From the IMG/VR virus record IMGVR_UViG_3300008450_000550, positions 1 through 21,371 of that record: a DNA stretch of 21,371 nucleotides. One strand, 5' to 3'. The notes beneath the pieces were generated by a model. The model saw nothing but the letters and a program-made list of their open reading frames with translations. It did not search any database and was not told where the DNA came from. Made by a program: the position numbers and the translations under genes. Each line of letters starts with the position of its first letter. Position 1 is the first letter of the stretch. The stretch is from a virus. Below are positions 16,400 to 18,571 of the stretch, piece after piece.

Positions 16400-16915
16400 T
16401 TAACTCAGGAAAAGGGCAATCTCAGCCTCGCGGCGCTTGACCAGACCCGGCAAGACCTTACCGCCACCTTTCGTCCAGACCCGGAACGCCTCGGCTGCAC
16501 CCTGCCAATCCCCCCGGTTGGCCCGCATCCTGATGGTGCTGCGCTGGAGGTTGCCTAACCCAAAATTGAAGGATATAGAGACCAGAGCGTCAAAGCTGCC
16601 TTGACGCCCAACCACGCCGGGAACAAGACGAAGAACACCCCGTTCAAAAGTTCCGACATCAGCGCGGAATAGTTCGTCGATCTCCGTTTTCGTCCAAACA
16701 CGGTTGTCCTCCGGTTTCAGTGGGTACTCTTTGCGGATCATGGGAATGTCAGCCTGCGTCTTGCCTTCTGGTCGAACCATCGGGAGCCTGATCTGCTCTT
16801 GGTACAGGACGTGGCCGTAGCCAATCGTCCAGATGTGGGCTGGGCAAAGGTAGGGCCGAGAGCGAAAGCCCTCGTACTTGTGCATCAAGTCTTCCCCGGC
16901 TTTGGACAGCTTCAC
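16400..16915 (-). CDS. Endolysin, GH24 (T4/P1-type) lysozyme
   Basis: GTG at 16915 overlaps the holin stop (GTGA) and has GGAG 6 nt upstream, so I take this start (171 aa); a TTG four codons earlier is also open. The active-site pattern E-x8-C-x5-T is present as E15, C24 and T30 within YEGFRSRPYLCPAHIWTIGYGH. A Cys in the second position, instead of Asp as in T4 lysozyme, is also found in phage P1 Lyz. The enzyme would cleave the glycosidic bonds of peptidoglycan. There is no signal peptide or SAR segment, so it should need the adjacent holin for release. An extra segment of roughly 30-35 residues follows the IGYGH motif compared with short T4-type enzymes. Confidence 0.92.
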   Translation of the reverse strand: MKLSKAGEDLMHKYEGFRSRPYLCPAHIWTIGYGHVLYQEQIRLPMVRPEGKTQADIPMIRKEYPLKPEDNRVWTKTEIDELFRADVGTFERGVLRLVPGVVGRQGSFDALVSISFNFGLGNLQRSTIRMRANRGDWQGAAEAFRVWTKGGGKVLPGLVKRREAEIALFLS

Positions 16916-17415
16916 TTCTTGCTCCAAGTCCTGCTTCCGAACCAGAACCCAAGGATGCCGCCCAGCATGGCCATCTCATCGCTGGAAAAAATCAGGTCAG
17001 AGTAGCGGATTACGTCGTCAATGTTCTGAATCAGGCCCGGCTGCTGGTACAGATACCAAGCCATGAAAGCGTTGATCGCCACCAACTCCAACACGAAGAT
17101 GTAAGTGACCGTGGGGCGCACAGTGCCCACGTAGCTGGACACCCAAGAGCCAGCCTTCTCCAGCACCTTGGCGTCATGAGCCAGCGCAGCCTCGGTCATC
17201 CGGGCGTCAGTTTCCATTGCCACCTGCTCGGTGCGAATCTCCTCCACACGGGCTTGGGCCGCGAAGCCAGCAGCGGCCAGTTGGAGTTCACGTTCGGTCT
17301 GCACACGGGCCAGAGCCAGCTCGTGCTTTTGGTCGGCCTTGTTCTGGAAGTATTCCAGCAGCTTTGGCAAGCCGGAGATCAGCAGCCCCCCGAGGGTAGA
17401 AATGAGTGAAAGCAT
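16912..17415 (-). CDS. Holin, three-TM (GTA holin-like) family
   Basis: The real start is ATG 17415 (AAGGGG upstream, TGATG junction with the preceding gene), giving 167 aa. There is a hydrophobic N-terminal segment (3-22), a long charged coiled-coil stretch (24-90), then W91...VRP101, a TM helix (103-122) and a C-terminal hydrophobic segment (148-160) ending FGSRTWSKK. The W-x-RP-TM ... FG-R-EK/SK layout matches the 3-TM holin family named after gene-transfer-agent release. It would make the inner-membrane lesion that lets the endolysin out. It overlaps the endolysin start by 4 nt, which strongly supports a lysis role. Confidence 0.78.
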   Translation of the reverse strand: MLSLISTLGGLLISGLPKLLEYFQNKADQKHELALARVQTERELQLAAAGFAAQARVEEIRTEQVAMETDARMTEAALAHDAKVLEKAGSWVSSYVGTVRPTVTYIFVLELVAINAFMAWYLYQQPGLIQNIDDVIRYSDLIFSSDEMAMLGGILGFWFGSRTWSKK

Positions 17416-18032
17416 CAGTTGCCCCTTTTGGTTAGCATAGCGCTGGCAATCTCCAGCATGAATTTGACTTGCTGGACGTCTTGCGGAGGCTCTGTCCAGC
17501 CCACCGTAATCTGTCCAACAAACCGGTGGTTGTCTGGCGGAACGCTTACCCGGCAGGTGTACGCCACGCCCTTTTCCAAGTACCACAGTCCTACCTCGGA
17601 TTGGGCATAGCGGTATTCCCCGCAAGGAATTTCGTTGGTCATCAACCGCACCACGTCCGAGTTGTTGGCCGAGTTCTGACTGAAGAGGCCTACGTCGATG
17701 TCTTCAATGCTCTTGTCCCGGCCGTCCTTCGTGTAGGCCCGGTAAACCGTCCTGCTGTTAAACAGCGGGTTGACCCTGAACACCGCTACCACCGTTGCCC
17801 CTGTCTTCTTCATCAACATGGAGCCCACATCATCGGCCCTTGAGGCGTTGATCTCTGGCAGCTTCTTGGACTCTTTGTAGGCGTCTAGCATGAAGGTTTG
17901 GTTCTGCCATAGGAAGTAGCCCGCAAATGCAATCACGCCCATCAAAATGATGGCGAACAGTTTAAATGGCGAGTCCACATACCCGAGCACCTTGTCTAGG
18001 GTTGTATTGGCGTTTAACTTTTCGTCGCTCAT
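17415..18032 (-). CDS. Membrane-anchored periplasmic protein, possibly GAF-like; lysis-cassette member
   Basis: The ATG at 18032 overlaps the preceding stop (ATGA), and its own stop overlaps the holin start (TGATG). The 205-aa product has a short charged cytoplasmic N-terminus, one TM helix (23-42, FKLFAIILMGVIAFAGYFLW) and a periplasmic domain of about 160 residues with two cysteines (C137, C160). The strand/helix pattern GATVVAVFRVNP ... GVAYTCRVSVPPDN ... FVGQITVGWTEPP ... FMLEIASAML reads like a GAF-type domain. I do not recognise a named family. Its place next to the holin suggests an antiholin or lysis-timing sensor, or an envelope function; this is inference. Confidence 0.8.
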   Translation of the reverse strand: MSDEKLNANTTLDKVLGYVDSPFKLFAIILMGVIAFAGYFLWQNQTFMLDAYKESKKLPEINASRADDVGSMLMKKTGATVVAVFRVNPLFNSRTVYRAYTKDGRDKSIEDIDVGLFSQNSANNSDVVRLMTNEIPCGEYRYAQSEVGLWYLEKGVAYTCRVSVPPDNHRFVGQITVGWTEPPQDVQQVKFMLEIASAMLTKRGN

Positions 18033-18475
18033 CGGATGTACTTGAAGTAGATTACAAGACCGTAAATCAACAGGGCAGCCAAGACAAGAGAGGCCATGCC
18101 AATGGCAATGTACTCAATTAGCTGTGCTATCTGTGCTGCTCTACGGGCCTTCTCGCGTTTGAGTGCTTCAGCGTCCTCTCTGCGTTTACGGGCAGCTTGG
18201 GCCTGAAACTTCTGCCAGTCGCCCCACATCCCCGGACGGCCTGCGTAGACCATGCGCTCACGCAGCTCTTCTTCTTGCTGCCTAAGCCGCTCCAAGGCCA
18301 TGAATTCCTCAAGATCAGAGCCGCCGCCTTTTTTGGTGACAGACTCCTGAATCTTGGCCTTGTTGTCGAAGTAGTCAAAGACCCGTGAACCGAGCTGGTG
18401 CAGCTCCTTGCCGTTTGCCAGAGCACCTTTTATTACTGCAAAGGCCGCATTGGCGGCGGCAATTTCTGCCAGCAT
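18029..18475 (-). CDS. Conserved coiled-coil membrane protein, 148 aa
   Basis: It starts at ATG 18475 with GAGGTG upstream. The N-terminal helix (MLAEIAAANAAFAVIKGALA) is followed by a charged coiled coil (about 54-115, rich in Arg/Glu/Gln) and one C-terminal TM helix (119-143) with a short basic tail. I recall the N-terminal pattern from conserved phage proteins without firm function. Its position just before two further membrane proteins and the holin suggests a role in lysis or envelope handling. A spanin is not supported: inner-membrane spanins have an N-terminal TM helix and a periplasmic C-terminus. The stop overlaps the next start by 4 nt. Confidence 0.8.
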   Translation of the reverse strand: MLAEIAAANAAFAVIKGALANGKELHQLGSRVFDYFDNKAKIQESVTKKGGGSDLEEFMALERLRQQEEELRERMVYAGRPGMWGDWQKFQAQAARKRREDAEALKREKARRAAQIAQLIEYIAIGMASLVLAALLIYGLVIYFKYIR

Positions 18476-18478
18476 ACT

Positions 18479-18571
18479 TCACCTCAAAACAAGAAAAACG
18501 GCCCGAACCGTCCAGATTGTCAACGCCACCAGACTGGCCGCTGCAACGAAGGCAACGCACCAGTCTTTCAT
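18479..18571 (-). CDS. Predicted 30-aa single-TM peptide
   Basis: ATG 18571 opens a frame of 30 codons ending in TGA at 18479. It begins 2 nt after the stop of the propeller gene and ends 3 nt before the start of the coiled-coil membrane gene, the tight packing seen across the block. The peptide is MKDWCVAFVAAASLVALTIW followed by TVRAVFLVLR: a single hydrophobic helix with basic residues near the C-terminus. The ribosome binding site is poor (GGCGGGAA, rather distant), so translation would rely on coupling. It could be a tiny holin/antiholin-type or membrane-targeting peptide, or a chance frame. Confidence 0.5.
   Translation of the reverse strand: MKDWCVAFVAAASLVALTIWTVRAVFLVLR

Follow-up and report, generated by a model that had tools for sequence, protein, structure and literature searches.

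We found that the 205-aa protein encoded on the minus strand at 17415-18032 of the window, the whole 21,371-nucleotide stretch of IMG/VR virus record IMGVR_UViG_3300008450_000550, is probably a divergent class III (T4 gpT-like) holin, in which a periplasmic GAF-fold domain would serve as the control module. The features of this protein and of its neighbours in the lysis cassette are as follows.

17415..18032, minus strand: ORF with an ATG start, 205 aa, class III-type (T4 gpT-like) holin candidate. In the AlphaFold model, a predicted cytoplasmic helix (9-18) is followed by the TM helix (22-43), two bridge helices (45-55, 63-77) and a GAF-fold domain reaching residue 205.
17958..17999, minus strand: juxtamembrane segment, residues 12-25, LDKVLGYVDSPFKL, the best-conserved stretch of the family.
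17904..17969, minus strand: transmembrane helix, residues 22-43 of the model.
17418..17846, minus strand: predicted GAF-fold periplasmic domain, residues 63-205, matching 6px4_B with Z 14.1 over 133 residues.
17622..17624, minus strand: Cys137, invariant in relatives.
17553..17555, minus strand: invariant Cys160, aligned with Cys175 of T4 T.
18029..18475, minus strand: upstream gene, 148 aa, with a cytoplasmic coiled region and a C-terminal TM (residues 123-141).
16912..17415, minus strand: 3TM holin-like neighbour (phrog_6637; GTA_holin_3TM below the cut-off), a second holin or accessory protein.
16400..16915, minus strand: endolysin, a phage lysozyme (PF00959, E 2.4e-35).

A real gene occupies 17415-18032, and its frame is under purifying selection, with a median dN/dS of 0.067 over 2150 pairs within its cluster. 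A single hydrophobic segment (residues 23-41) lies near the N-terminus, and the protein has exactly two cysteines, C137 and C160, both of which are invariant in 8 diverse relatives (set A1) and in 30 relatives (set A2). The single-TM anchor and the two cysteines of the domain, both described in the sequence-only reading, were thus borne out. The N-termini of many relatives are rich in Lys/Arg, which agrees, as do the invariant cysteines, with the predicted N-in, C-out topology. The N-terminal helix 9-18 is also predicted, with an amphipathic moment that is not significant (P 0.17). In the 8-sequence A1 set, which was not chosen by the segment motif, residues 12-25 carry 3.27 bits versus 2.82 for the GAF domain; the larger sets are biased for the conservation of this segment because they were fetched partly via its motif. 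Relatives are numerous in IMG/VR, where 392 of 400 pattern matches in the first scan encode one, and peptide-pattern scans of genome contigs returned no relatives, which the patterns may simply miss. The 205-aa protein is matched by phrog_31287 (E 6e-22), a group of unknown function whose members include ORF-77 of Edwardsiella phage GF-2 and S13_076.

The AlphaFold2 model, built with a 30-sequence alignment, has a mean pLDDT of 82.7, rising to about 90 in the periplasmic domain, and the secondary-structure order of the domain is alpha-beta-beta-alpha-beta-alpha-beta-beta-alpha. In VIA-align the best PDB match was the T4 holin T periplasmic chain 6px4_B (Z 14.1, 133 aligned, 3.1 Å), accompanied by the further T chains 6psk_T (Z 13.9) and 6pxe_T (Z 13.5), and the GAF domains of phytochromes and similar proteins scored Z 12 to 13.6. 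Z differences below 1 were counted as ties, and the fold alone does not single out T because ordinary GAF domains lie within one Z unit. In Foldseek, 6psk_T had the highest target-normalised TM-score (0.70) among the matches listed. The matches in the viral library BFVD ran from close relatives through the 'Holin' of phiP4-3 and the 'Class III holin' of Stubb to the 'T holin lysis mediator' of PS2. The modelled periplasmic domain is therefore a GAF fold, as had been guessed from the letters, since T4 holin T chains and GAF domains head the VIA-align matches; a Pfam scan of the protein returned no family, GAF included, up to E 1. The earlier suggestion that the fold would be unrelated to the T4 system did not hold, the periplasmic domain of T4 holin T itself being the top structural match.

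At the sequence level the kinship is far fainter. The 205-aa protein was matched by neither the PF11031 (Phage_holin_T) nor the phrog_860 profile, pairwise BLASTP against T4 T was not significant, and searching PDB sequences with the family by phmmer and hmmsearch gave nothing meaningful, so that kinship with T is visible only by fold. Profile-profile comparison with T gave a weak, collinear alignment (probability 7%, E 0.005). With the periplasmic domains only, hhalign scored 21.5. The null distributions averaged 12.1 and 12.4 (SD about 2.5), and the best of 300 column shuffles stayed just below the observed score, at 21.4; the aligned segments are in register (127/160 with 128/161). Since the sequence test failed, the protein is not filed under Phage_holin_T, and for want of a PF11031 or PHROG 860 match we place it outside the T family, as a divergent holin of the class III type. 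A phrog_860 match found in phage S13 was rejected, as it falls within the anaerobic nucleotide reductase gene.

In the window, the ORF is coupled to the upstream 148-aa gene through ATGA (18029-18032), where its ATG overlaps the stop of that gene, and to the 3TM-like gene through TGATG (17413-17417), where the stop of the ORF overlaps the next ATG; the latter coupling had been pointed out earlier, and the ATG side proves to be coupled as well. The lysozyme ORF was listed with a TTG start, but the GTG at 16915, which overlaps the preceding stop (GTGA), is the likelier one. From these chained start/stop overlaps, the interval between 18475 and 16400 can be read as a single coupled lysis cassette in the order 148-aa tail-anchored protein, 205-aa protein, 3TM-like protein and endolysin. 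A non-systematic look at the surroundings of this cassette showed no spanin genes. The 148-aa gene is kept in 78 of the 81 loci of the window cluster. Just before it, at 18479-18571 on the minus strand, lies a 30-aa hydrophobic microprotein, MKDWCVAFVAAASLVALTIWTVRAVFLVLR, which is conserved in many window-cluster loci, while other loci have coil-plus-TM proteins of 60-80 aa there; it is possibly another lysis-related membrane peptide. The neighbour at 16912-17415 had been taken as the holin of the cassette: its 3TM holin-like character stands, but GTA_holin_3TM gives it only 12.4 bits against a cut-off of 24.8.

A survey of 173 loci showed that the family gene is constant and that the neighbouring 3TM 'holin' and the type of endolysin are swapped. 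In the metagenomic relatives, the 3TM neighbour occurs in at least four divergent versions, located after or before the family gene or beyond the endolysin, and the endolysin is of the GH24, GH108, GH19 or M15 type, labels that, except for GH24 and GH108, were assigned by reading the sequences without a family match. The family gene adjoins a peptidoglycan hydrolase gene in the GF-2 group and in almost every uncut metagenomic locus. Two 'T-GH19' cassettes that apparently lacked a 3TM gene turned out to carry the fourth, divergent version. In one cassette without a separate 3TM gene, the GH24 endolysin (L184 2356-3072) bears two hydrophobic segments, 180-198 and 204-222, at its C-terminus. In addition, two contigs (98 and 93 kb) each contain two holin-endolysin stretches tens of kilobases apart (L123 and L176; L145 and L177), with about 86% nucleotide identity between the duplicates, which may be two lysis modules or chimeric assemblies.

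Two phages dispense with the 3TM gene in their lysis cassettes. Edwardsiella phage GF-2 has the order Q, ORF-77 (the family member), endolysin and Rz, and Vibrio phage IKEMa6-1 has the family member, endolysin and Rz/Rz1; in both, the family member is the sole holin candidate of the lysis region. In the case of GF-2, the only TM ORFs of this region are ORF-77, Rz and Rz1, if a weak segment of the tail needle protein encoded downstream is set aside, and this type of arrangement is common to 12 fetched stretches of the cluster (8 distinct records). Outside the lysis region, GF-2 ORF-19 (L187 13563-13805), which follows the lytic tail protein, encodes a protein of 80 aa with two TMs. The 3TM protein is thus no obligate partner of the family member, as it is swapped, changes position and, in GF-2 and IKEMa6-1, is missing altogether.

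The constancy of the family gene amid swapped 3TM and endolysin partners is easier to reconcile with a core holin than with a sensor dedicated to one particular holin. Since a 3TM holin-like protein is encoded in the window too, the 205-aa protein might nevertheless descend from or resemble a T holin and regulate a separate 3TM holin as a membrane-anchored antiholin or sensor. In favour of this, the window and almost every metagenomic cassette encode an adjoining 3TM holin-like protein, the two genes are coupled at the TGATG junction, and GAF folds often bind ligands. We regard this reading as rather unlikely, though it deserves weight, since the GF-2 lysis region has neither a 3TM protein nor another TM candidate, the 3TM partner is swapped among divergent families, and the juxtamembrane segment is conserved above the GAF domain even in the A1 set. 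Similar considerations bear on a two-component holin, in which the T-like and 3TM proteins would jointly make the lesion: their near-constant co-occurrence in metagenomic cassettes and their translational coupling suit it, but the cassettes of GF-2 and IKEMa6-1 lack the 3TM gene and both partner identity and gene order vary, and we consider it improbable.

The T4-like phages S13 and Ci1 contain a family member that does not adjoin lysis genes, together with a T4-style lysozyme, and neither showed a PF11031 or PF24205 match. This location would suit a membrane-anchored GAF protein that merely happens to lie in the lysis region elsewhere and has no part in lysis. However, the t gene of T4 is likewise distant from its lysozyme gene, and the hydrolase adjoining the family gene in nearly all uncut metagenomic loci and the GF-2 group argues against such a bystander, which we hold to be very improbable. 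The link to lysis timing drawn in the sequence-only reading was a good guess, but a sensor beside a holin is probably wrong; most simply, the protein can be read as the holin itself, with a built-in GAF-fold control domain.

As a class III-type holin, the protein would insert with a short cytoplasmic N-terminal tail, one TM helix and the GAF-fold domain in the periplasm, accumulate in the inner membrane and oligomerise late in infection, and the resulting holes would release the lysozyme encoded two genes downstream. The periplasmic domain would probably be the regulatory handle, bound by an antiholin or another signal as in T4, and the adjacent 3TM protein would then be a second holin or an accessory lysis protein. 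In T4 T, the periplasmic domain is dispensable for hole formation and serves regulation, and the segment on the cytoplasmic side, which contains F22 and R34, is essential.

In another clade we found 42 loci that couple the T-like gene to a small gene whose product has a signal peptide and two invariant cysteines (L141 3360-3644, L082 5567-5839, L173 4591-4869 and 39 further loci); this gene is absent from the window. On the tree, the T-like holins with this partner fall into a single group (one change, support 82/89), and the small gene lies upstream of the T-like gene in some loci and downstream in others. The secreted protein is predicted to form a four-helix domain (pLDDT 89) and had no match in Pfam or PHROGs. 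We infer that it is a candidate antiholin. In gross features the secreted protein resembles T4 RI, which combines a signal peptide that is cleaved off with a small, disulfide-bearing periplasmic domain (PMC11413866). Despite this RI-like architecture no kinship with RI was found: PF24205 and profile comparison gave no support, and a fold search found no RI chain among the matches listed. Tentatively, holin/antiholin control of the T4 type may extend beyond T4 and T5 phages, with a GAF-fold holin domain bound by a lineage-specific partner: in one clade this unrelated secreted two-cysteine four-helix protein would do the job of RI, and in the window clade that role might fall to another protein, for example the tail-anchored 148-aa neighbour.

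Relatives of the family are widespread in phages without a previously recognised holin of the gpT type. A large divergent family on the gpT plan would give a function to an unannotated PHROG (phrog_31287) and would offer a holin for Edwardsiella prophages and for T4-like phages such as S13, in which none had been recognised. It would also serve as a natural experiment on the way in which a GAF-fold domain was turned into the control domain of a holin, and the coupled secreted partner makes lysis inhibition beyond T4 and N4 directly testable. If lineage-specific partners do bind GAF-fold holins, lysis inhibition would be widespread in environmental phages.

Comparisons with known systems place the protein closest to T4 holin T (gpT; PF11031, phrog_860; PDB 6PX4, 6PSK, 6PXE). 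The layout of T, consisting of an amphipathic helix, a TM, a bridge helix and a globular domain (PMC12162936), is repeated by the full-length 205-aa model, which shares with gpT a predicted cytoplasmic helix, the single N-terminal TM, the bridge helix and the GAF-like periplasmic domain. The two are also close in length (205 versus 218 aa), but the 205-aa protein has a shorter juxtamembrane loop; relative to the T4 pair C175/C207, only Cys160 is aligned (with C175), and Cys137 differs from the position of C207. Unlike T4 t, genes of this family mostly sit directly in the lysis cassette, mostly with a 3TM protein. GTA_holin_3TM (PF11351, phrog_3427), a common neighbour in these cassettes, is unrelated to the 205-aa protein in architecture. 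The GAF domains of phytochromes and signalling proteins have the same fold (Z up to 13.6), but the protein shows only ~10% identity to them and no Pfam match, and in contrast to them its domain is predicted to be periplasmic and has no attached enzyme or kinase. The T5-like holins, distant homologues of T4 T, share the class III topology and the place directly before the endolysin; they were found by tblastn with T4 T, whereas the present family was not.
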